Made by a program: the position numbers and the translations under genes. Below are positions 4,457 through 16,493 of a stretch of 20,672 nt of DNA, piece by piece. The DNA is from a virus: positions 1-20,672 of the IMG/VR virus record IMGVR_UViG_3300037847_002674, one strand, 5' to 3'. Under the pieces are notes generated by a model. That model did no database searches and was not told the DNA's origin. It saw nothing but the letters and a program-made list of their open reading frames with translations. Each line of letters begins with the position of its first letter. The first letter of the stretch is position 1.

Positions 4457-4486
4457 TATATAGAGCTATTCTTCAATATCAGTCAA
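4457..4486 (-). promoter_or_regulatory. Candidate sigma70-type promoter for the late virion genes
   Basis: On the minus strand there is TTGACT (4486-4481), an 18-base spacer and TATATA (4462-4457). This matches 5/6 of the -35 consensus and 4/6 of the -10 consensus. Transcription would start near 4450, leaving a leader of about 30 bases before the ATG at 4419. The -35 box overlaps the last codons and stop of the upstream glycosyltransferase. This 59-bp space is the largest or nearly the largest gap in an otherwise overlapping gene array, which adds weight. AT-rich DNA yields such matches by chance, so it is only a candidate. Confidence 0.45.
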
Positions 4487-5237
4487 CTTTATAGAATTCG
4501 TCTTTGACTTTGCCTGAATACTTATATTCACCGATATGGCTTATTTCTTCATCACATAAAGCATGAATTTTACCACCTATTGATGTCCATAATTTACAAA
4601 AATAGAAATCTTCACCCATGTACGTTTTATTTTTTGGACTCCAATAAGTGTCAAAAAAGTTATAATAGTTAGGTCTATCTATAAGCTCTCCATTGACTAA
4701 TGTCTTTTGACTTATAATTAATTCCTTATAATGCTCTTTCAATTTATCAAATGCTGATCTTTTAATCATCATCATACCTGTAGGTCCTTTAGACACTTCT
4801 ATAAAACCATCTTTAGGTCTTATGTCATTTATATCTGGTATTTCTATAGGAAACAAATGTCCCATACTGTGAATACTATCATCAGGTCTTGTTTCAAAAT
4901 CTTTTCTAAATTTAGCATCTGTCTTTTGTTTCATTGGATAAGGTATTAAAGATACTTCGTGAGGTGATTTGAATAATCTATAAACCGATCTTGTACTAAA
5001 CTCAATATCAGAATCTATAAATAACATCTGATCTGCATCAGAATTCATAAACGCAGAGGCACACAAATTTCTACCCTGTGTAACTAATGAAGATTTCATT
5101 AGTTGAAATGTAATTTTTGTTTTATTTAAAATACATTCTTTTTGTAAATCTAAACAAGCTTTCATATAATGTATAGAAACATCAGAATGCACAGGAGTGC
5201 AGACCATCATATGATTTTTATTTATTTCGTTGGACAT
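4479..5237 (-). CDS. GT-A-fold glycosyltransferase-like protein, 252 aa
   Basis: This is probably a metal-dependent nucleotide-sugar transferase. After an N-terminal strand (MMVCTPVHSD) comes QGRNLCASAFM and then QMLFIDSDIEF, whose Asp75-Ser-Asp77 is the expected DxD motif for Mn/Mg and sugar nucleotide. GPTGMMMIKRSAFDKL (about 151-166) and GEDFYFCKLW (Glu209-Asp210) look like the acceptor and catalytic part of GT-A enzymes, and His234 in ISHIGEY is a candidate third metal ligand. The start at 5237 is fixed by a strong AGAGGAG ribosome site. It overlaps the GT4-type gene by 20 bases, so the two are probably made together. It lacks a membrane segment and should be cytoplasmic. The acceptor (virion protein, host glycan or DNA) is unknown. 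Confidence 0.75.
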   Translation of the reverse strand: MSNEINKNHMMVCTPVHSDVSIHYMKACLDLQKECILNKTKITFQLMKSSLVTQGRNLCASAFMNSDADQMLFIDSDIEFSTRSVYRLFKSPHEVSLIPYPMKQKTDAKFRKDFETRPDDSIHSMGHLFPIEIPDINDIRPKDGFIEVSKGPTGMMMIKRSAFDKLKEHYKELIISQKTLVNGELIDRPNYYNFFDTYWSPKNKTYMGEDFYFCKLWTSIGGKIHALCDEEISHIGEYKYSGKVKDEFYKVD

Positions 5238-6857: not shown

Positions 6858-7018
6858 GATAAAAAATAATTAAATGTTTCAGTTTCATTTTTTTGTTCTC
6901 TTTGATAAGTAGTGTTCAATTGGTTTTGTAATTGTTCTAAAGCTAAGTTAATTTGTCTAAAACTTTCACTTGAAAATTCTTTTGGTGGTTCAGGTAAAAA
7001 TACTTGTACTTTAGCCAT
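6854..7018 (-). CDS. Small helical protein, 54 aa
   Basis: The ATG at 7018 forms TAATG with the stop of the gp10-like gene, and its stop forms ATGA with the next start. The product begins MAKVQVFLPEPPKEFSSESF and continues as a Gln/Asn-rich amphipathic helix (RQINLALEQLQNQLNTTYQR), probably a short coiled coil. Precise coupling at both ends is good evidence that it is real. Its position after a tail hub gene suggests a small tail or assembly factor. No known family is recognised with certainty. Confidence 0.75.
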   Translation of the reverse strand: MAKVQVFLPEPPKEFSSESFRQINLALEQLQNQLNTTYQREQKNETETFNYFLS

Positions 7019-8931
7019 TATCTTCTACCATCAGGTTGTATATCAAATCTAAATTGACCAAATCTCCAGCTTTCATTTGTGCTATCATTTTCTATTTTTA
7101 CAGCAGCTAATCTAGCTCTTGCTCTTGTGTCAACTTTATCTGTAGTTGACGTTACTGTAAAGGGGCCAAGTGGTGATCCCTGTTGTATATTAGCTGGATA
7201 ATCTCTTAATTCTAAAGTAACTTTACAGTTACCATTTAAATATTTAAAGTCAGGTATAAACCTTCTTACTTTTATAAAGTATTCACCATCACCCTGTGCG
7301 TCTAAATCAAAGTCACCTGATTTAATAAATGCAGATATAGCATTTGTTGTTCCATTAGCTAAAACTTCATTTGTACCTTTTTCATGATCAAAAACTCTTG
7401 AGGCACCATTTGATACTCCTTGAACTGTAGGGGTGTTTGGAGCAAGACTAGCTGTAAATTCAGTTGCTATAGGATCTGCAAATACATGGCTATCCTCATA
7501 CGTTGTTCTTGCTAAAGTTCCAGTAGTCCATGTTTGTTCAGCATAATTGTAAGTAACTACTCGATCTACATAGCTTGAACTTGCGCTTGCATAAAACCAT
7601 GATATCTCAGAAAATAAACTATTGTGAGATCCACATGTAAGCTCAGAACCGTTTGCAAAATTAAAACCTGGCGTATTATTATTTGTTTGAAATACAAAAT
7701 CTTCTACAAGTGAACCAAGTGATTTAACAGTTCCATCGAATACAAAAAACCCACCTGAATCTGACATCCAATAAACTGCACCATTTGCATAAACAATAGC
7801 GTGTTGACCGACACACCCACAGTTAGATCCCACTTGTCTTATACTAAATGTAAAAGGTGGCCCAACAAATTGCATTAAATAAGCTGAAGTATCAGTTAAA
7901 ATAAGAATATAATCTTTTGCTTTTGCTGCGCCTACAATTTTAGTACCACTATCAATTCTAAAAGACCCTGCTGTATTTGTGGATGTCGCTGTATAATCTG
8001 TCAGTGATTCCTGATCCGAGAATCTTATAAACATTTTATCTTGTGTGGTAGGCGACCCTATTGTTGTTTCTGTACCTAAAATAATTAAGTGTCTGTCTCT
8101 ATCTGAGACCATACTCATTACAGATCTTGTAGGAGCATTTGTTACTATTGTTGCTCTGTTAGCAACACCTGAGTTTGGATCCCAAGAAAATGTTTCACCA
8201 TTTTTAATAGTTGCTATTAACAATTCCCCATAATTATCTAATGACCATGAACCAGGATCTAGTATTGCATTTGATGTTGTTCTTGCAGTACCCCATGTAG
8301 AAGCACCATATAACCCTGTTCCCCATCCATATCCGTAGGCTTGTTGTAATGGACCTACTTTGTAATAAGGTTTTGAATCAAGTGTACCGTCGTTAGTGGC
8401 TCCTGTCCCTGTTTCTGCCGATGGCATTAATATTGTGAATGTAGTACTAGTAGGTGCTAATTGAACCTCAAACAATACATCATCAAAGTCTGTTGCTGTA
8501 TATGCAGTTTGTCCAGCTGTGAAGGATCCAGCATTTTCAAATGTAAGTATGTCACCTGGTTCGAGGCCGTGGTTCGTGGGACTTGTAATTGTAACCGTTC
8601 TAGAACCGGTCGTGGTTGTAATATCACATCCTGTTTTTGCTAAGGATGGATTAAAAGGTGTGATGTCATGATAGTCATCGCCATCATAAACATACAAAAT
8701 TTTGTTTGTGCCAAAAGCAATGTACCTTCTGCCATCTAGATCAGCCCAACTGTGCGACGCTCTTGCTGCGCCTATTAATTGTTTGTCCATAATCTCAGAC
8801 CAACCACCGATCTTTTCAGGCATAGCATATCTGAATCTAACAAAGTCACCATCTACCCATTGGTTTTCAGCTCCTGAAGCAGAAGCTTGTTTATTAAATC
8901 CAGGTGCAAATTGTACTTTTGTTAATGGCAT
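7018..8931 (-). CDS. P22 gp10-like tail hub / packaged-DNA stabilisation protein, 637 aa
   Basis: This is a large beta-rich protein of the podovirus tail tube or plug type. It opens MPLTKVQFAPGFNKQASASG, followed by WVDGDFVRFRYAMPEKIGGW, a start I recall from many marine phages. Repeated blade-like strands follow (RRYIAFGTNKILYVYDGDDY, RHLIILGTET, DYILILTDTSAYLMQFVG, GAVYWMSDSGGFFVFDG), as expected for a beta-propeller. The segment SNCGCVGQHAIVYANGAVYW corresponds to the region of P22 gp10 around its central blades; this alignment is from memory. An upstream in-frame ATG at 8949 would add six residues, but the internal ATG fits the family start and shortens overlap with the previous gene to 10 bases. 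It separates the oxygenase cassette from the glycosyltransferases. Confidence 0.75.
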   Translation of the reverse strand: MPLTKVQFAPGFNKQASASGAENQWVDGDFVRFRYAMPEKIGGWSEIMDKQLIGAARASHSWADLDGRRYIAFGTNKILYVYDGDDYHDITPFNPSLAKTGCDITTTTGSRTVTITSPTNHGLEPGDILTFENAGSFTAGQTAYTATDFDDVLFEVQLAPTSTTFTILMPSAETGTGATNDGTLDSKPYYKVGPLQQAYGYGWGTGLYGASTWGTARTTSNAILDPGSWSLDNYGELLIATIKNGETFSWDPNSGVANRATIVTNAPTRSVMSMVSDRDRHLIILGTETTIGSPTTQDKMFIRFSDQESLTDYTATSTNTAGSFRIDSGTKIVGAAKAKDYILILTDTSAYLMQFVGPPFTFSIRQVGSNCGCVGQHAIVYANGAVYWMSDSGGFFVFDGTVKSLGSLVEDFVFQTNNNTPGFNFANGSELTCGSHNSLFSEISWFYASASSSYVDRVVTYNYAEQTWTTGTLARTTYEDSHVFADPIATEFTASLAPNTPTVQGVSNGASRVFDHEKGTNEVLANGTTNAISAFIKSGDFDLDAQGDGEYFIKVRRFIPDFKYLNGNCKVTLELRDYPANIQQGSPLGPFTVTSTTDKVDTRARARLAAVKIENDSTNESWRFGQFRFDIQPDGRR

Positions 8932-9260
8932 GGCAGTATTATACACCATTCTAGCTTAGACGCCAATTCCTCTATATTTACCACACGTTTAGAGTTTTCT
9001 TTTAAATATTGATGAAGTTCTTCAACATCAACAATAATAAACTGATCCTTTAAATCATATACTATTTTATCTGCTTTGGTTTTAAATGAACCACCTTTGG
9101 CTTGATTCTTTAATGGACGTAAATCAAATTTAAATTTTTGGTTATGTAAAATTCCTTCTATATCCCAAAGTTCTCTTTTTTTCTGATTAGGGGTAGCTTC
9201 TTTTGTAATAATTAATAACTTTTTAAAATCATTTAATGACATATGTAGAATAAGGCTCAT
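8922..9260 (-). CDS. Unknown protein closing the oxygenase cassette, 112 aa
   Basis: I do not recognise a family. Visible features are an N-terminal helix (LNDFKKLLIITKEATPNQKK), ELWDIEGILHNQKFKFDLRP, a Lys/Gly segment KGGSFKTKADKIVYDL and KDQFIIVDVEELHQYLKE with alternating hydrophobics, then a final helix and WCIILP. The mix of basic loop and beta-alpha units could be a small nucleotide- or nucleic-acid-binding fold, but no motif proves it. An alternative ATG at 9242 would remove six residues and shorten the overlap with the upstream oxygenase gene from 32 to 14 bases. Its AT-rich composition matches the oxygenase genes, so it probably belongs to their cassette. Confidence 0.6.
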   Translation of the reverse strand: MSLILHMSLNDFKKLLIITKEATPNQKKRELWDIEGILHNQKFKFDLRPLKNQAKGGSFKTKADKIVYDLKDQFIIVDVEELHQYLKENSKRVVNIEELASKLEWCIILPCH

Positions 9261-9867
9261 TGCCTACTTTTCCCGTGAGAAAATAATTAGCTCCAAATAC
9301 AATTCTATTTTCGTCATGTTCATTAGGAGTTGTACCATGCCTAAGATCACCAGGAAAAATAACTACATCTCCTTGTTGAGGTTGAATAGTCCATTGACTA
9401 GAATTGTGTTCATTATATTTTTTTATATCATATTCAAAGTAAAAAGATTCTTCAATTGCAGACCGATCTACGTAAAATGTTAAAGCTCCACTTTTTATTC
9501 TAGCATAAAATACAACACTAAATAAACAATTAGGATGTCGATGTTCATGGTGGCTACGTCCTTTTGTACAAAGAGATATCCAATCGTTAACTCTAATTAA
9601 TTTATTAGTTATACCTAAAGCATTTTTTGCATAAGTATCTGACATTTTATCTATAAATTTTTTTACAGGTTCTAAAAATTTATCTTTAAACACATGAGTA
9701 TTATTACTTACTAAAGCACCTTTGGTTCCTTGTTTAGTAGTTTGTTTGCAATATTGTTTTTTAATTAATTTGTTTATAAATTCATCTGATAAACTAAAAT
9801 TTGTTTTATAGATCTTTATAGGAATTGCTTTTAAATTTAAAGAATATGTGTTTTTTATTTCCACCAT
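9229..9867 (-). CDS. 2OG-Fe(II) oxygenase-like protein of the TIGR02466 / 2OG-FeII_Oxy_5 type, 212 aa
   Basis: The double-stranded beta-helix core is visible from VNDWISLCTKGRSHHEHRHP to the C-terminus. The metal site follows the histidine-rich variant known for this family: His107-Glu-His109-Arg-His111 then PNCLFSVVFYA, where classical enzymes have HxD. The distal histidine is His177 in FPGDLRHGTTPNE, and Arg188 (ENRIVFGANYF) is the likely 2OG carboxylate binder. SGALTFYVDR forms the usual strand between them. It should hydroxylate an unknown substrate using O2 and 2-oxoglutarate. It is the last oxygenase of the cassette; its ATG overlaps the preceding oxygenase gene by 13 bases. The exact iron ligands cannot be settled by eye. 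Confidence 0.8.
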   Translation of the reverse strand: MVEIKNTYSLNLKAIPIKIYKTNFSLSDEFINKLIKKQYCKQTTKQGTKGALVSNNTHVFKDKFLEPVKKFIDKMSDTYAKNALGITNKLIRVNDWISLCTKGRSHHEHRHPNCLFSVVFYARIKSGALTFYVDRSAIEESFYFEYDIKKYNEHNSSQWTIQPQQGDVVIFPGDLRHGTTPNEHDENRIVFGANYFLTGKVGNEPYSTYVIK

Positions 9868-10391
9868 GGGCCTGTCTCAAAAATAGTACATGATATTCTT
9901 TCACCTTTAGTAACAGGAGTTACTTTATGTAAAAAATAAGATGGAAATATTATCATACTACCTGGTTGATCAAACTCTTTCACATGATATGGTTTACCAT
10001 CAAATAGTTTAAATACTCCTCCTTCATAAGGTTTTTCAGATAAATTAATTAATGTAGTCAATTTTAAAGTAAAATTTTGAGAATAAGGTTCTGCATCTAC
10101 GTGCCATTTGTATTGACCGCGATTAGAAGCTCTGTATTTATTTTGAATAACATCGTCATAAATATTATCATAAATATCAAAACCAAATACTTTTCTATTT
10201 ATCCATCTAATTGATTGTTTAATGTCTTTTATTTTTTGAATTTTACTATAAGCTGTTTGAGTAGCTACTGACGATTTTACAGTAGGTGCTTGTTTATAAA
10301 ATGGCTGAGGAGTTTTATCAAACTCTTTATTAATCTTTTTAATTTGAGTTTTAGTTAAATAATCGTTCACATAATAGTAAGTAAATTTCAT
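9855..10391 (-). CDS. 2OG-Fe(II) oxygenase, PKHD/PiuC-like, 178 aa
   Basis: A classical set of residues is present: His97-Val-Asp99 (YKWHVDAEPY), distal His155 (SYFLHKVTPV) and Arg165 (TKGERISCTIF) for 2-oxoglutarate. KLTTLINLSE and PYEGGVFKLF are the strands of the jelly-roll core, and PGSMIIFPS precedes the distal histidine. This is the prolyl/lysyl-hydroxylase-like (P4Hc, PKHD) pattern, so a hydroxylated protein or small molecule is expected. The ATG at 10391 shares a base with the previous stop (TAATG), which I prefer to a TTG start 15 bases upstream. Its C-terminal 35 residues resemble those of the first oxygenase in the cassette, suggesting paralogy. Confidence 0.87.
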   Translation of the reverse strand: MKFTYYYVNDYLTKTQIKKINKEFDKTPQPFYKQAPTVKSSVATQTAYSKIQKIKDIKQSIRWINRKVFGFDIYDNIYDDVIQNKYRASNRGQYKWHVDAEPYSQNFTLKLTTLINLSEKPYEGGVFKLFDGKPYHVKEFDQPGSMIIFPSYFLHKVTPVTKGERISCTIFETGPWWK

Positions 10392-10915
10392 TAAAAATAG
10401 TTCCAATTTATGTTTATTCTTGCATTTTGGTTTGTAGTAGATGTGCTTGAATGAGGTTTAGAAGCATCAAATAATAATAATCTATTTTCCACTGAATCTA
10501 TTTTAGTATCATCATCTAAAATAGTAGCTCCATCACAGGTATTAATAGAAAATAAAGCTGCTTTGTGTGGAAAGTTATAATCAATATGTGCTTTATGTTT
10601 TAATAACTTTGATGTAATTGGATATAAATTACATTTTATTCTTAATAGTGCTCTAGGATTTATTTTATCTATTAAAGGAAAAAGGATATCAAAATGTTTT
10701 GATTTTATAAAATGTGATCCTTCATAAAACATGTGGGTAAAATAACAAGATTTATCTTTTCTTTCAAATTCATTTATGTTTGGTTCGTAATGCCACGGAA
10801 AATCTGCATGCAGAATAGCATGTTTTAAATCTAAAAATTGGTGTCTTGGTAAGAAGTCATCTATTACTGTATACTTATCTTTAGCTAAAGCTATTTGTTT
10901 CTTTTTTTTATACAT
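10391..10915 (-). CDS. 2OG-Fe(II) oxygenase-like protein, 174 aa
   Basis: The core motif is His110-Ile-Asp112 (KHKAHIDYNFPHKAALFSIN), followed by the short strand GATILDDDTKI, SVENRLLLFDASKPHSS with distal His155, and Arg166 in ARININWNYF at the very end. The N-terminal half (YTVIDDFLPRHQFLDLKHAI, PWHYEP) is the substrate-shaping lid usual for such enzymes, and resembles phage proteins with a PWxY motif. The catalytic triad and the 2OG-binding arginine are all in place, so activity is likely; the substrate is unknown. It starts 4 bases after the previous stop and is coupled to the next oxygenase by TAATG. Confidence 0.82.
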   Translation of the reverse strand: MYKKKKQIALAKDKYTVIDDFLPRHQFLDLKHAILHADFPWHYEPNINEFERKDKSCYFTHMFYEGSHFIKSKHFDILFPLIDKINPRALLRIKCNLYPITSKLLKHKAHIDYNFPHKAALFSINTCDGATILDDDTKIDSVENRLLLFDASKPHSSTSTTNQNARININWNYF

Positions 10916-10919
10916 GTAT

Positions 10920-11486
10920 TCACACCCCTAAACGTTTCCACCAACCAGTTAAGATATATTTATTTTGTTTTTTAGGAGGATAGCCTTTGTGAGTATGAGT
11001 CCAGGTTGCAGGCCAAATTAGAGTTAATCCTTTCTTAGGTTTTATCTTTAACTTTTGATCCCAGAAAGCTGTCTCTCCCCCACTATTTACCGTGTTTAAA
11101 TAAGTCATAAAAACCAAATGTCTTTTATAAGTGGTTCTACTTCCACTATTTTCATTATGCCATATGTGATAACCCTCATTAGGTTTATATCTTTGTATCT
11201 TTGGCCATAATTCTAAATCCCAAGACTCTTGGCCTATGTCACAATATTTATATTTTTTTTTATATTTATTTAAACATTTTACTAGTTCAGAAATATATTC
11301 ATCCCATAAAGTTGTTTCTTGCTGTCTAAATATTACCTCTGTAGTTTCTTTTAGTTTAGGATCATACACATCATCGTTGCCCTGAAAAAAAGTGCCTCTA
11401 TATTTTGTATTATTATTTTCAAAATAATTTATTAACTCGTCACACAAGTTTTTATCTATGTAGCTTTTACCAATAAAGTCAGTCAT
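10920..11486 (-). CDS. 2OG-Fe(II) oxygenase-like protein with HxE-type metal motif, 188 aa
   Basis: The core reads IQRYKPNEGYHIWHNENSGS. His110-Asn-Glu112 takes the place of HxD, so the carboxylate ligand is probably glutamate. RHLVFMTYLNTVNSGGETAF and KIKPKKGLTLIWPATWTHTH (His164, His166) complete the jelly roll, and Lys176 in NKYILTGWWK is a candidate 2OG binder in place of arginine. From memory, this YHxWHxE...THTHxG...KYILTGW pattern defines a recognisable group in cyanophages and marine bacteria with no proven substrate. It overlaps the preceding oxygenase gene by 8 bases. Because glutamate versions of the triad can be active or altered, chemistry is less certain than for its neighbours. 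Confidence 0.82.
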   Translation of the reverse strand: MTDFIGKSYIDKNLCDELINYFENNNTKYRGTFFQGNDDVYDPKLKETTEVIFRQQETTLWDEYISELVKCLNKYKKKYKYCDIGQESWDLELWPKIQRYKPNEGYHIWHNENSGSRTTYKRHLVFMTYLNTVNSGGETAFWDQKLKIKPKKGLTLIWPATWTHTHKGYPPKKQNKYILTGWWKRLGV

Positions 11487-12081
11487 TTATTCTAAAATCA
11501 AAGTTAACAACAGTTCTATAAGTAGATTCTACAGGTGAATTACCTGCGTGATATCTATCTCCATCAAAATAAAAAGCAGATCCTTTTTTAGGAGTGTTCT
11601 TTTTAGCTATAGTAAGTTTAGTTTTGTCATAAAAATTTGGATAATCTTTATTATGTTTTTCTTTAAACATAATAGTATCTCCGTCTGAATCATGTAAATA
11701 GTATATTAATGACTTATATTTATCTAAGTCTGCAAGGTCTACATGTGGATAATTATATTTTTTTAAAGTATGTCCTTTACAATAAAATGTACGTCTAATT
11801 CTAACTCTAAGTATTTCTGTAATTTTTACTTTTTCTTTTTCTGCAAAAGCGTCAAGAATAATTTTAAATCTCTCAAAGAAATCTGAGTTAGCTCCTTTGG
11901 GTTGAAAATACAAAGTATGAATCCACCCGTATGTTTCAGTGATATTTTTATGTTTTATAAATTTTTCGTTTCTGTCATAGATTACATTTCCATAAAAAAA
12001 CCATGGAAACTCATCACTGTTGACTATGTTTTCTAAATAATCTTGTTGTTGTACAGATAATAAATTTTTAATTAATTTCAT
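11479..12081 (-). CDS. 2OG-Fe(II) oxygenase-like protein, 200 aa
   Basis: His113-Val-Asp115 (YPHVDLADLDKYKSLIYYL), distal His178 (SAFYFDGDRYHAGNSP) and Arg189 (STYRTVVNFDF) form a full iron and 2-oxoglutarate site. DGDTIMFKEKH is the intervening strand. The N-terminal domain contains SDEFPWFFYGNVIYD and YGWIHTLYF, of the same general type as the PWHYEP element of the 174-aa oxygenase, so these two may form one subfamily. It overlaps both neighbours (14 bases upstream, 8 downstream). Soluble and cytoplasmic; substrate unknown. From memory, similar proteins occur in T4-like cyanophages next to structural genes. Confidence 0.83.
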   Translation of the reverse strand: MKLIKNLLSVQQQDYLENIVNSDEFPWFFYGNVIYDRNEKFIKHKNITETYGWIHTLYFQPKGANSDFFERFKIILDAFAEKEKVKITEILRVRIRRTFYCKGHTLKKYNYPHVDLADLDKYKSLIYYLHDSDGDTIMFKEKHNKDYPNFYDKTKLTIAKKNTPKKGSAFYFDGDRYHAGNSPVESTYRTVVNFDFRIND

Positions 12082-12691
12082 GAAATTTCCTTTTTTTCTC
12101 AGTAGCAGAATTAGGTAATCCTAAATGCTTTCTTGAGTCATAAAGAGTATCCGCACTTGATAGAGTGTAATGTAAAAATAATTGACCACATATTTGACCT
12201 TTAAATTGTTCTCTCCAGTGTGGTAATTCTGTACCTTGATATAAAACTGCATCCCCAGGTTTTAAAGTAATATCTGTTTTAATTCCCTTTTTATCTAACA
12301 AAAATATAGGCCATTTATCACCGCCTAAATTAATTGTTAAAGAAACAGCGCATGCTTTCCTATCTCTGTGTTTACGCAAATCATCTCCTTTTTTGTAAAG
12401 TCTTGCATAACTATAGCTTTCTGTAAGTTTTAATTTAGTTTCTTTTTCTACTTTCTTTTTTAAAAAAGCTATAAGATTATCCATAGCTGCATCTCCATAA
12501 ATAGCAAATGTATTTGGACACATAGAATCACCTTTTCCTCCCCAATCTAAATTATAAGGAGATATTAAGTTCATATCCATCATGGTGTTAAATACTTTCT
12601 TTTTTAATTGTAAATATGAATATAGAAAATCAGCAAGTTGCTTATCTATTATTTGTTTTTGAATACAATAACCTCTATCTTTAAAAGACAT
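12068..12691 (-). CDS. 2OG-Fe(II) oxygenase-like protein, 207 aa
   Basis: The core is YARLYKKGDDLRKHRDRKAC with His108-Arg-Asp110, then AVSLTINLGGDKWPIFLLDK, ITLKPGDAVLYQGTELPHWR with distal His158, and GQICGQLFLHYT. The usual arginine about ten residues after the distal histidine is replaced by the GQICGQ stretch, so 2OG binding must use another residue (Arg160 or Lys164 are nearby). This layout (KHxDRxxC...W-PI...PGDxVLYxGxELxHWRE) is familiar from memory as a distinct phage/marine group. It overlaps the sulfotransferase gene by 11 bases and the next oxygenase by 14. The C-terminal 30 residues are Lys/Arg-rich and probably unstructured. Confidence 0.8.
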   Translation of the reverse strand: MSFKDRGYCIQKQIIDKQLADFLYSYLQLKKKVFNTMMDMNLISPYNLDWGGKGDSMCPNTFAIYGDAAMDNLIAFLKKKVEKETKLKLTESYSYARLYKKGDDLRKHRDRKACAVSLTINLGGDKWPIFLLDKKGIKTDITLKPGDAVLYQGTELPHWREQFKGQICGQLFLHYTLSSADTLYDSRKHLGLPNSATEKKRKFHEIN

Positions 12692-13442
12692 CTAAATCTT
12701 TGCACCTTTTAATAATGTGTTGAGGTAATAGGTTTTTACTTTTTAATTTTCTTGGTTTACCTAAAGTTAATTTATGTAAAGGAATTTCTGGGCCACCTAC
12801 ATCTCTAAATATTTCATCGTTATATTTGACACCATTATTTTCAAATTGTCCATTCACTGTGTAATTAACTTTGCTGTATTTTAAATTTAAATATTTAAAC
12901 ACTTTTTTAATTTCTTTTTCAGGGTTTTTTATTAAGTTTTTATAATGTATTACAATATAATCTAATTTATTTTCTTTAAGGTATTTACATGCTGCAACAA
13001 CTTTTCCCAATGATCCTGAAATACTCAACTTTTCAGCTGCAAAGTGTTCTATGTTTCTTCTTTCTTTAGGAATAAGAGATACAAATGAATTTAAACATTC
13101 ATGTAAAGGTCTGTATAAAATTATATGTTTTTGTTTATTAGGAGCTATTGTGTCTAATAAAATTTGATTGCCTTGTGTGCCCCAAGGACCTCTAATTAAA
13201 ATATTGTTTTGTTTCCAATGTTCAAAATAATTATCAAATATTTTTTTGTACATATTATCAAAAGATTGTTCGTCAGGAAAATTGTGAAAGTTTTCACCAG
13301 CTTTAATTCTATATAATTGGAGCAAGACATCAGGTAAAACAGAATTACCTGTCACTGCTATGTCTTTATGTTTATTAACTAAGTATCCAAAAAGAGTATT
13401 ACCCGCTCTTGGCATACCATTAAAAAAAATATAATTTTTCAT
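12681..13442 (-). CDS. PAPS-dependent sulfotransferase, 253 aa
   Basis: This enzyme should transfer sulfate from PAPS to a hydroxyl or amine of an unknown acceptor. The N-terminal strand and 5'-phosphosulfate loop are FFNGMPRAGNTLFGYL (residues 6-21). The 3'-phosphate site is IILYRPLHECLNSFVSL with Arg111 and Ser119. IVIHYKNLIKNPEKEIKKVF (from about 173) is the usual following helix, and a basic C-terminus closes the protein. I chose the ATG at 13442 because it overlaps the preceding oxygenase stop as ATGA with a GGAAGG ribosome site upstream; an open GTG 24 bases earlier is less likely. No signal peptide or membrane anchor is seen, so it acts in the cytoplasm. It is the only non-oxygenase enzyme recognised in the cassette. 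Confidence 0.87.
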   Translation of the reverse strand: MKNYIFFNGMPRAGNTLFGYLVNKHKDIAVTGNSVLPDVLLQLYRIKAGENFHNFPDEQSFDNMYKKIFDNYFEHWKQNNILIRGPWGTQGNQILLDTIAPNKQKHIILYRPLHECLNSFVSLIPKERRNIEHFAAEKLSISGSLGKVVAACKYLKENKLDYIVIHYKNLIKNPEKEIKKVFKYLNLKYSKVNYTVNGQFENNGVKYNDEIFRDVGGPEIPLHKLTLGKPRKLKSKNLLPQHIIKRCKDLDVF

Positions 13443-14068
13443 TTGAAAGGCCTTCCTAAGCACCACATAACTAAAGAATATCTTGTGCCTTTAGTAACAG
13501 GTGATACAGCGTGAAACTGAAAAGACGGAAAAACAACTAAAGACCCTTGTCTTTTTAGTTCTTTGGCTGTTAATTGAGTTATTTTAGTAGGGTCTTTTTT
13601 ATGATCTAAAAATTTTAATTCTCCTCCTTTATATTCAGAGGAGTCATTTAAAGAAACTGTTACAGATAATTTTCTAATTTTACCATGGATATTTGGACTA
13701 GAGGGATCATCATATGGTTGAACACCACAATCTTGATGAAAACCATAAAATTGATTTTTTTTATAAATAGTGAATTGTATGTTTTCTGCCTTATCTATTT
13801 CAAAATTCCAACCTGCATTTTTATTAGCAGTGTTTACAAAAGGAATAACAGTATCAAAAATCCATTGATCTTTTAACCAAACAATGTTTGAATTCCTAAG
13901 TTTTTTTAAATCTTTTGATTGTTTTTTGGTAAGTTTTTTTCGAGTATCAATTGCAAAAGTACCGCCCCTTCTTTCGTCTTTTTTAGCTAATGCATGTTGT
14001 ATAACGTCATTACAAAACGATTTAGGCAATGCTTTTTCAAAATACCAATATTTATACTGCAAATTCAT
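13439..14068 (-). CDS. 2OG-Fe(II) oxygenase, PKHD/PiuC-like, 209 aa
   Basis: The first gene of the cassette has the full hydroxylase site: His111-Gln-Asp113 (YGFHQDCGVQPYD), distal His186 (FPSFQFHAVSPVTKG) and Arg196 (RYSLVMW). LSVTVSLNDSSEYKGGELKF is the paired strand region of the jelly roll and QGSLVVFPS the strand before the distal histidine. This matches the prolyl-4-hydroxylase-like, PKHD-type branch (PiuC-like). The N-terminal KYWYFEKALPKSFCNDVIQ helix is typical of the same proteins. It follows the 136-aa gene after a 53-base space that may hold a promoter, and its stop overlaps the sulfotransferase start. Confidence 0.9.
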   Translation of the reverse strand: MNLQYKYWYFEKALPKSFCNDVIQHALAKKDERRGGTFAIDTRKKLTKKQSKDLKKLRNSNIVWLKDQWIFDTVIPFVNTANKNAGWNFEIDKAENIQFTIYKKNQFYGFHQDCGVQPYDDPSSPNIHGKIRKLSVTVSLNDSSEYKGGELKFLDHKKDPTKITQLTAKELKRQGSLVVFPSFQFHAVSPVTKGTRYSLVMWCLGRPFK

Positions 14069-14121: not shown

Positions 14122-14532
14122 CTATGCCGTTACCCAAGTAGAAGTATCAGCATTCCATATTAAAGCAGTACTATTACCGTTTTCATCTACTCTAGAAGTT
14201 CCATACCATCTTTGATTAGATTCATCCCATTCAATTGGAAACACATCAGTATCACCATATGCTGTTGAACTTGGGAAAGCAACTGGTGCTTGCCACTCAT
14301 TATTGGAGTCTAAAGTCCAACTAGGAAATGTTTTAACATTTATAAATACATCTTTAGCTGAATCATATGTGCCGTCTATTTGAGCATAACGTTGTCTTTG
14401 TGAACCATCTTCCCAAGTTTCTTTGTGAGTAGGTCCTAATAAAGAATCCATAGACGCTTCCGTAGCATCATCATCGCATTGAACTACGTTGATAACAACA
14501 TTATTTTCATCTAATTTAGCAAAATATTTCAT
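14122..14532 (-). CDS. Tail-fibre accessory-type protein of marine phages, 136 aa
   Basis: The start MKYFAKLDENNVVINVVQCD and the internal QRYAQIDGTYDSAKDVFI, followed by FPSWTLDSNNEWQAPVAFPS, match from memory a small protein common beside tail-fibre genes in cyanophages and pelagiphages (MKxFAKIxxNNxVxxVIVxD...GTYDxxxxxFI...PSWxLxxxxxWxAPxxYP). The C-terminus has several Trp-centred strands (IEWDESNQRWYG, LIWNADTSTWV). Fibre assembly or a short fibre component is plausible; proof is lacking. It is coupled to the glycine-rich gene by TAATG and is the last structural gene before the oxygenase cassette. Confidence 0.65.
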   Translation of the reverse strand: MKYFAKLDENNVVINVVQCDDDATEASMDSLLGPTHKETWEDGSQRQRYAQIDGTYDSAKDVFINVKTFPSWTLDSNNEWQAPVAFPSSTAYGDTDVFPIEWDESNQRWYGTSRVDENGNSTALIWNADTSTWVTA

Positions 14533-15401
14533 TAAGCAAACGACGCCGTTCCTGTAACTGTAAAGTTAGCAATTTTATCACCGTTAGGTGCTGTTGATGT
14601 TGAATTAGTTCCAGGAGCTACTGTCCATGTGATATCAGATGGTCCTCTCAATACAACTCTTCCTGAACCTCCAGGGCCACCGTTACCTCCGTCAGCTCCA
14701 GCACCTCCGCCTCCGCCGCCTTGGCCGTTAGATCCTGCGCCTCCCGTTCCACCTTGAACTGAGCCGCCATTTCCGCCGCCTCCGCTGCCTCCTGTTCCTG
14801 GGTTTTGACCGTGAATATATCCACCGCCTCCGCCACCGCCAGCATAAGTTACTGATGCGCCTGTAATGTCTACTGCATATCCTTGTCCGCCGCCTCGAGT
14901 CGGATTGTTTTCTCCTACGTTGGCTGCTCCTCCGCCACCGCCTCGTGGACCCGATCCTCCTGCCGTTCCTTCAGCTGGAGTATATCCTCCTTGGTTTCCA
15001 CCAGCAGGACCACCCTCTCCAGGGCCTCCTCCAGCAGATCCGCCATCTTGAGATTGTCCATTAGCTAAACCAGCTCCTCTCCCGCCACCAGTTGAGTTAA
15101 ATGCTGAAACTAAATCCCCTCCTGACACTCCTGAGTTTGCACCTTTAGATGCAACTCCTGTAGAACCCCCCACTGTTATAGTGTAAGTGTTATCAGGATT
15201 CATAATGAAAGGTTCGCCTGAGTCTAAACTTCCGCCACCGAAAGAAGTTCTAAAACCTCCTCCGCCTCCACCAGCAGCATAGTTTTGGCCTCCACCGCCA
15301 CCTGCAGCAAGAACCAAATAATCTATTTCAGTTCCGCCTCCGCCAGCTGTTAATCCAAATGCTCTTGAGCTTCCTGCTCCTATAGTTGCTAGTAATGGCA
15401 T
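14532..15401 (-). CDS. Glycine-rich adhesin / tail tip-like protein, 289 aa
   Basis: Residues about 18-250 are dominated by runs of three to six glycines broken by single polar or hydrophobic residues (DYLVLAAGGGGGQ, AAGGGGGGFRTSFGGG, AGGGGGGGYIHG). The ends are ordinary beta sequence (TWTVAPGTNSTSTAPNG, then ANFTVTGTASFA). There is no regular Gly-X-Y, so it is not collagen-like. Glycine-rich tips packing as polyglycine-II sandwiches are known for gp38-type adhesins of some T-even-like phages, and the location after the fibre gene fits a receptor-binding role. It has the strongest AGGAGG ribosome site in the window, suggesting high expression. The coding DNA is locally GC-rich because of GGN codons. 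It is a plausible substrate for the downstream modification enzymes; that is inference. Confidence 0.7.
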   Translation of the reverse strand: MPLLATIGAGSSRAFGLTAGGGGTEIDYLVLAAGGGGGQNYAAGGGGGGFRTSFGGGSLDSGEPFIMNPDNTYTITVGGSTGVASKGANSGVSGGDLVSAFNSTGGGRGAGLANGQSQDGGSAGGGPGEGGPAGGNQGGYTPAEGTAGGSGPRGGGGGAANVGENNPTRGGGQGYAVDITGASVTYAGGGGGGGYIHGQNPGTGGSGGGGNGGSVQGGTGGAGSNGQGGGGGGAGADGGNGGPGGSGRVVLRGPSDITWTVAPGTNSTSTAPNGDKIANFTVTGTASFA

Positions 15402-15422: not shown

Positions 15423-16493
15423 TTACGCAAACTGTGTTAGAGAAGCTAAAACTGTAAATGCAGCGTCTCCTGTTTTAATAACAGTGTAAGAGTAAACATC
15501 AAGTGAGTTAGCATTTCCTGCAGATGGTGCAGAACCACCTTGCCATTCAGGAGTTACTCCTGATCCATCAACTTGTACAGCTGAATTGTAATATGCTGAA
15601 CTACCTTGTTTTACTATGTGAGCTACTGTTATAGATTCTCCAGCGTCCATAATACTATTTAAAGAATTTGATCCATCACCTCTAATATTTAATGTCCAGT
15701 TTCCTGAAGCATCAGTAGTGAAGTTCCAAACTGCTTGTGTAATTACATCGTAGTTTACTGTTCCTGTAGCAGCCGTTGCTTCAGTCGTAACTTTTTCAGC
15801 AGTTTGTTGAATTTTTGCAGCACCTAAAGATACTCTTCCGACACCTTTTCCAGCAAAACTTAGATCAATGTTAGAATCACCACCTGTTGCAGTAACGCTT
15901 GGAGCGTTTCCTGTTGCAGCGTTAGTTACATCAATTTGGTTAACTGCCGATGCTGTAGTTTGGAATGTAATTTGTTCATTACCATTTTCGTCCTGTATTC
16001 CATGAGCATCATCAATTTTAATATTTTGTGAGTTAGTGTCTAGATCTCCACCAAGTTGCGGTGAAGTATCTTCTACGATATCTTTTAAGAAAAATACATC
16101 AACTGCATTTGTACCATCAACATAAATTATATGAGTTTTTCCCTCAACAAGCGTTACACCTGATCCACTGACAGTTTTAAAAGTTAATGAATTTCCTGAT
16201 CTTGTAGTACCATCTACAACAATGTATGTTTTTTCTATTCCATCTGGAACAGTTACAACTCTAGTTCCTGCAAGAGTTCCTGTTAATTTAAGAACTGCAT
16301 TTCTTGCATTTGATATTGTTGCGTTAGTCATCGCAAGAGCAACGTCTGATGACGCTACATCAATAGCTTCATAACCTGCAATTGCTTGTTGAACTAAGTT
16401 TAAATTTGTATTTGTTTTATCACCCCATGTACCAGCGTTTTCGCCAGTTACCATAAGTTCTAGTTTTAAATCTGTAGAATAACTTGATGCCAT
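15423..16493 (-). CDS. Tail-fibre-type structural protein, 356 aa
   Basis: The N-terminus (SSYSTDLKLELMVTGENAGT, then WGDKTNTNLN) is the start I recall for a widespread marine phage fibre-like protein with a GTWG-xxTNxNL motif. The following 100 residues are beta-rich (LKLTGTLAGTRVVTVPDG, KTYIVVDGTTRSGNSLTF). A middle segment, SPQLGGDLDTNSQNIKI, then a string of short strands including ITFQTTASAVNQIDVTNAAT and WNFTTDASGNWTLNIRGDGS, reads as a trimeric fibre shaft with a C-terminal head. It probably connects the tail to the adhesin. AAAGGA stands nine bases upstream of the ATG. Assignment rests on recalled family resemblance and gene order. Confidence 0.7.
   Translation of the reverse strand: MASSYSTDLKLELMVTGENAGTWGDKTNTNLNLVQQAIAGYEAIDVASSDVALAMTNATISNARNAVLKLTGTLAGTRVVTVPDGIEKTYIVVDGTTRSGNSLTFKTVSGSGVTLVEGKTHIIYVDGTNAVDVFFLKDIVEDTSPQLGGDLDTNSQNIKIDDAHGIQDENGNEQITFQTTASAVNQIDVTNAATGNAPSVTATGGDSNIDLSFAGKGVGRVSLGAAKIQQTAEKVTTEATAATGTVNYDVITQAVWNFTTDASGNWTLNIRGDGSNSLNSIMDAGESITVAHIVKQGSSAYYNSAVQVDGSGVTPEWQGGSAPSAGNANSLDVYSYTVIKTGDAAFTVLASLTQFA

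Follow-up and report, generated by a model that had tools for sequence, protein, structure and literature searches.

To our knowledge, the role of the many 2-oxoglutarate (2OG)-dependent oxygenase genes carried by marine phages has remained open since 2010. Clusters of such genes have been described: in HTVC023P-type pelagiphages, eight 2OG genes that are not orthologous to one another lie together, next to 'ferrochelatases' (mSystems 2022, PMC9599517), and the T4-like cyanophage S-SCSM1 carries 24 2OG oxygenase genes (PMC9602691). Here we analyse an array of this kind in the IMG/VR virus record IMGVR_UViG_3300037847_002674, the whole of which (20,672 bases) forms the window. Nine open reading frames (ORFs) on the minus strand (8922–14068; g1 to g9, Table 1), which overlap their neighbours slightly or lie 4 bp apart, encode a sulfotransferase, a small protein (g9) and seven 2OG-Fe(II) oxygenases that have diverged from one another. 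The tail hub of the window shares 53.5–53.8% identity with those of HTVC027P and HTVC023P, and the gene order of adhesins, 2OG genes, hub and glycosyltransferase is common to all three; judged by shared hub and gene order, the window phage is an HTVC023P-type pelagiphage and thereby putatively a virus of SAR11, the most abundant bacteria in the ocean.

The array as such is already known, since the published cluster belongs to the same phage type (PMC9599517). Relative to the open-access literature, what is new is the corrected identity of a 'ferrochelatase', a wider set of enzymes and an island that joins adhesins to these enzymes. In the passages of that report considered here, the 2OG genes are treated as metabolic, with an iron-insertion partner, and neither linkage to adhesins nor swapping appears; in the present locus, by contrast, the 'ferrochelatase' g3 adopts the fold of prolyl hydroxylases, and the 2OG genes belong to a hypervariable island of the tail module that also encodes further enzymes of tailoring type.

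A hypervariable adhesin–enzyme island in the tail module

The comparison covered 80 related viral contigs or loci retrieved with the hub in a first search. The region between the conserved tail genes t356 and hub (hereafter the slot) contains 311 of the 313 oxygenase ORFs, indicating that the clustering is not due to chance; the link to tail genes proposed in a preliminary description of the window is thus also present in relatives. At least two oxygenases occupy the slot in all 42 loci with 3 kb or more of sequence ahead of the hub, and the 35 complete slots hold 3–10 each, with a median of 6. Seven oxygenases, regarded as exceptional in the preliminary description, are therefore near the lineage median, and both the published pelagiphage cluster and the 24 genes of S-SCSM1 speak against exceptionality as well. 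The 323 full-size oxygenase proteins separate into 114 clusters at 40% identity, two of which are common: that of g1, a core member present in most relatives (44 proteins), and that of g3, likewise a core member of the relatives' cassettes.

Further enzymes accompany the oxygenases. Flavin-dependent tryptophan halogenases occur in the slot of 13 loci and NodU/Nol-type O-carbamoyltransferases in that of 8, together with methyltransferases and three kinds of sulfotransferase, one sulfotransferase family being galactose-3-O-sulfotransferase-like. At least one match to a non-oxygenase reference set was found in 22 of 34 complete slots, an upper figure because the set includes DUF6445, some members of which also scored as oxygenases. 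Cassette orientation varies as well, five being wholly inverted and four mixed, and the distal adhesins of the lineage belong to glycine-rich or tail-collar families. The wholly inverted cassettes (L056, L058, L065, L074 and L082, the last being HTVC027P) adjoin a distal adhesin of tail-collar rather than glycine-rich type.

Between its two conserved flanking genes, the slot forms a hypervariable island. In 16 of the 21 pairs whose flanks are nearly identical (score ratio ≥0.9 for the hub and ≥0.85 for t356), cassette similarity is below 0.3, and such pairs usually differ in their distal adhesins as well as in their enzymes. L002, for example, encodes a hub 99% identical to that of the window together with a different enzyme set that includes a halogenase and a carbamoyltransferase, and the DNA homology of the window with L001 and L002 begins right at the hub start. 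In L095, the flanks are distant from those of the window (hub 53%, t356 63% identity), whereas the island is close: the glycine-rich adhesin is 86% identical, the small tail protein 71%, and the eight enzymes and g9 75–95%, in the same gene order and with one additional oxygenase. Synonymous divergence (dS) between window and L095 follows the same division, with values of 0.34–0.92 within the island and of 1.29 and 1.84 in the flanks. Accordingly, what was transferred comprised the two distal adhesin genes but neither t356 nor the hub. A similar pattern recurs in L097 and L099, where the adhesins and the first four of the enzymes are shared at ~44–58%, whatever the backbone. The distal adhesin genes (14122–15401) and the array (8922–14068) are thus most likely one exchangeable unit, their co-transfer being documented by one clear transfer and one further related set rather than by a statistical law. 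Ratios of non-synonymous to synonymous divergence (dN/dS) of 0.06–0.23 show that all seven oxygenases and the sulfotransferase are under purifying selection.

Identity of the array enzymes

All seven genes encode proteins of 2OG-Fe(II) oxygenase type with predicted activity, and the assignment made in the preliminary description is borne out by Pfam for four of them, by iterative profiles and by two AlphaFold models. No 2OG match was obtained in Pfam for g3, g4 and g6, and iterative profiles seeded with g4 and with g6 each recovered all seven oxygenases. The AlphaFold models of g3 and g6, compared with solved structures by Z score and Foldseek, have the jelly-roll (double-stranded beta-helix) fold of prolyl hydroxylases and not a fold foreign to 2OG enzymes; in g3 the entire chain is modelled as a beta jelly roll. 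The best solved match of the g3 model is the Pseudomonas putida prolyl-4-hydroxylase (P4H; Z 17.0, 162 residues, 2.6 Å; Foldseek E 3.4e-10), the closest structure being that of the enzyme complexed with EF-Tu, and that of the g6 model is a 2OG oxygenase from Burkholderia (Z 16.4, 162 residues, 3.0 Å). PHD2 is the next match after these (Z 15.9 for g6), and the top structural matches of both models are protein hydroxylases. The fold is assigned to g1, g5, g7 and g8 by Pfam and to g4 by profile linkage only, the membership of g4 among 2OG oxygenases coming from sequence profiles.

The metal ligands are kept in 96–100% of relatives, except for the acidic ligand of g5 (83%); those of g1 are 100% conserved across 40 relatives. 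A standard H-x-D/E...H triad is present in six of the proteins (g1, g3, g4, g5, g6 and g7), and g8, whose TIGR02466 match exceeds the cut-off, has an atypical H-x-H...H triad that recurs in all 40 of its relatives. An arginine after the distal histidine, at the 2-oxoglutarate-binding position, is conserved in g1, g4, g6, g7 and g8; g3 has an invariant Q170 there instead, and g5 has no clear candidate.

Two PHROGs labels were rejected on these grounds. The 'ferrochelatase' label of g3 (phrog_2954) is contradicted by its prolyl-hydroxylase fold, and no ferrochelatase Pfam family matched g3 up to E 1, a correction that weakens the published iron-insertion reading; 'DNA endonuclease V', attached to g4 (phrog_274) and g6, is contradicted by the profile evidence and the fold of g6. 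A single-protein scan of bacterial genome contigs returned no relatives of g3.

The eighth enzyme gene, g2, had been described as a sulfotransferase, which its PF13469 score above the curated cut-off corroborates. Its 5'-phosphosulfate loop (PRAGNT) aligns to PRSGTT of protein-tyrosine sulfotransferase 1, and by family profile and loop it is classed as a predicted 3'-phosphoadenosine-5'-phosphosulfate (PAPS)-dependent sulfotransferase. Similarity to protein-tyrosine sulfotransferases is weak (E 0.011), and its true start is probably slightly downstream of the GTG. The product of the remaining gene, g9, is not an oxygenase. The window member has no Pfam match, and in those relatives that carry it g9 usually adjoins the hub. 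An alignment of the family (window and relatives) contains invariant acidic and basic residues and fits no established family; any nuclease-like function is purely conjectural.

Candidate substrates of the array

We propose, with a probability of about 50%, that the array enzymes modify the distal adhesin with which they travel; that it is the substrate, in which order the enzymes act and what the phage gains are what we infer. The array would be produced alongside the virion proteins, several position-specific oxygenases would add hydroxyl groups to side chains in the distal adhesin or in a neighbouring tail protein, and g2 would sulfate some hydroxyls, newly made or already present. Halogenases, carbamoyltransferases and methyltransferases would attach further groups in relatives, and an island swap would alter the tip together with its chemical finish, leading to an altered host range or to escape from a change of the host surface. 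This proposal is strengthened by the halogenases, carbamoyltransferases, other sulfotransferases and methyltransferases that the relatives' slot also holds and by the co-transfer of the window island with the distal adhesin pair; the occurrence of all these classes beside hydroxylases in one slot is consistent with the tailoring of a single polymer. The P. putida P4H, PHD2 and the chlorella virus enzyme vCPH (4iw3, 3hqr and 5c5t), which have their fold in common with the g3 and g6 models, are known to hydroxylate protein side chains. More tentatively, receptor-binding tips finished by co-inherited, swappable enzymes (with hydroxyl, sulfate, halogen, carbamoyl or methyl groups) may diversify adhesins at a second level, over and above their amino-acid sequence. 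If this is true, phage host-binding proteins bear enzyme-made chemical groups, which bears on host range and on the discovery of tailoring enzymes, and the link to a swappable adhesin island offers a concrete, testable substrate for marine-phage 2OG genes.

Comparable gene sets exist in other phages. T4-like cyanophages likewise encode many diverged PF13640/PF13759 proteins, the tryptophan halogenase prnA, a carbamoyltransferase and a 'ferrochelatase' (S-SCSM1; PMC3037559). Seven oxygenases of S-SCSM1, whose backbone is unrelated to that of the window phage, lie among tail-fibre genes, and in HTVC008M, syn9 and Sf-CH11 oxygenase arrays with a halogenase or 'ferrochelatase' adjoin structural or fibre genes; these four phages were chosen as query matches and are not a random sample.

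Several observations weigh against modification of the adhesin. Many 2OG genes of S-SCSM1 lie among replication rather than tail genes. The adhesin is a candidate substrate, and structural likeness does not in itself reveal one; identity of the models to P4H, PHD2 and vCPH is 9–19% in the listed alignments, and g3 lacks their usual arginine after the distal histidine. Comparison of adhesin Trp, Tyr, Pro, Lys, Asn and Gly content with halogenase presence or oxygenase number yielded nothing robust across many uncorrected tests. Adhesin and cassette are correlated (partial Mantel r 0.62), but r drops to 0.20 (P 0.05) once the inverted-cassette clade is removed, and the correlation is higher for the adhesin-proximal half, as expected from mere linkage; overall it reflects mostly one clade, is explicable by linkage and lends weak support only. 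L064 retains a related adhesin beside a different cassette. In the open-access literature, we found no direct report of clusters like these hydroxylating or sulfating the tail proteins of a phage.

The main rival places the substrate in the host envelope, where, at a late stage of infection, the enzymes would modify a polymer (lipopolysaccharide, capsule or surface protein), blocking for example superinfection or the readsorption of progeny to debris; they would adjoin the adhesin since both evolve against the same receptor. We consider this unlikely, although not strongly so. NodU/Nol-type carbamoyltransferases and the galactose-3-O-sulfotransferase-like family, both present in the slot, are of kinds known to act on sugars, and matching to a receptor would likewise make adhesin and enzymes co-transfer. 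Tryptophan halogenases and P4H-fold oxygenases, whose substrates are usually aromatic or amino-acid, point the other way. A glycosyltransferase located beyond the hub would also suit an envelope role; of the two glycosyltransferases that the preliminary description placed nearby, however, only one was confirmed by Pfam, the putative second (4479–5237) having no Pfam match and matching only phrog_1574 of unknown function, and both are conserved backbone genes that lie past the hub, outside the island.

Reprogramming of the host, in which the oxygenases drain 2-oxoglutarate or hydroxylate host proteins (EF-Tu, ribosomal proteins) and their tail position is an insertion hot spot, appears less probable still. 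It has been proposed for cyanophage 2OG genes (PMC3037559), and the EF-Tu-bound prolyl hydroxylase nearest to g3 is in keeping with it, but a drain on 2-oxoglutarate needs one enzyme and not seven diverged ones swapped as a set with an adhesin. Moreover, oxygenases are nearly restricted to the tail slot in the 80 loci, and in four complete related genomes the matches of two profiles fall in the slot. The mixture of 2OG oxygenase, flavin adenine dinucleotide (FAD)-dependent halogenase and carbamoyl-, sulfo- and methyltransferase also recalls natural-product tailoring, and a cyanophage halogenase has been suggested to act in antibiotic synthesis (PMC2984593). Synthesis of such a small molecule or modified peptide, unrelated to the tail, is nevertheless improbable, as the family-scanned slot genes include no scaffold-making enzyme and the small slot ORFs are coiled-coil-like rather than precursor peptides.

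Flanking tail genes and minor features

Table 1. Features of the array and of the adjoining tail genes in the window, listed in the order g1 to g9 followed by the tail genes (pLDDT, predicted local distance difference test).
Feature	Position	Strand	Evidence
g1: 2OG-Fe(II) oxygenase, PF13640	13439..14068	-	Pfam E 2.7e-17; ligands H111, D113, H186, R196
g2: predicted PAPS-type sulfotransferase, PF13469	12681..13466	-	Pfam 38.3 bits vs curated cut-off 27
g3: prolyl-hydroxylase-fold oxygenase	12068..12691	-	AlphaFold pLDDT 93.0; ligands H108, D110, H158
g4: diverged 2OG oxygenase	11479..12081	-	Iterative profile, alignment with g6; H113, D115, H178, R189
g5: 2OG-Fe(II) oxygenase, PF13640	10920..11486	-	Pfam E 2e-12; H110, E112, H166
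g6: diverged 2OG oxygenase, prolyl-hydroxylase fold	10391..10915	-	AlphaFold pLDDT 92.8; H110, D112, H155, R166
g7: 2OG-Fe(II) oxygenase, PF13640	9855..10406	-	Pfam E 4.6e-12; H102, D104, H160, R170
g8: 2OG-Fe(II) oxygenase, PF13759/TIGR02466 type	9229..9867	-	Pfam E 1.1e-17; H109-x-H111, H177, R188
g9: small conserved protein, not an oxygenase	8922..9260	-	Alignment of 16 relatives
Small distal tail protein (phrog_7759), moves with island	14122..14532	-	PHROG and island comparison
Glycine-rich distal adhesin (PF21722), moves with island; proposed substrate	14532..15401	-	Pfam E 2.3e-10
Conserved tail protein t356, left island flank	15423..16493	-	phrog_31104, phrog_5906; similarity comparison
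Conserved tail hub / stabilization protein, right island flank	7018..8949	-	phrog_3287 E 9e-91

The glycine-rich adhesin differs from the cassette in base composition, with a G+C content of ~43% (14645–15390) versus ~28%. Cassettes also contain a recurrent family of coiled-coil-like ORFs of ~70–88 residues (L003:7479-7745, L006:8684-8911 and L054:5833-6060).

At the hub end of the island, a -10-like box, TGTATAAT, precedes the probable hub start, ATGCCATTA, by a few bases on the minus strand and lies within the 3' end of g9 (8931–8949). The corresponding position before the hub reads TGTATAAT or TGTAAAAT in most relatives, which suggests that the hub may be expressed from a leaderless transcript. 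The box coincides with the junction at which islands are swapped.

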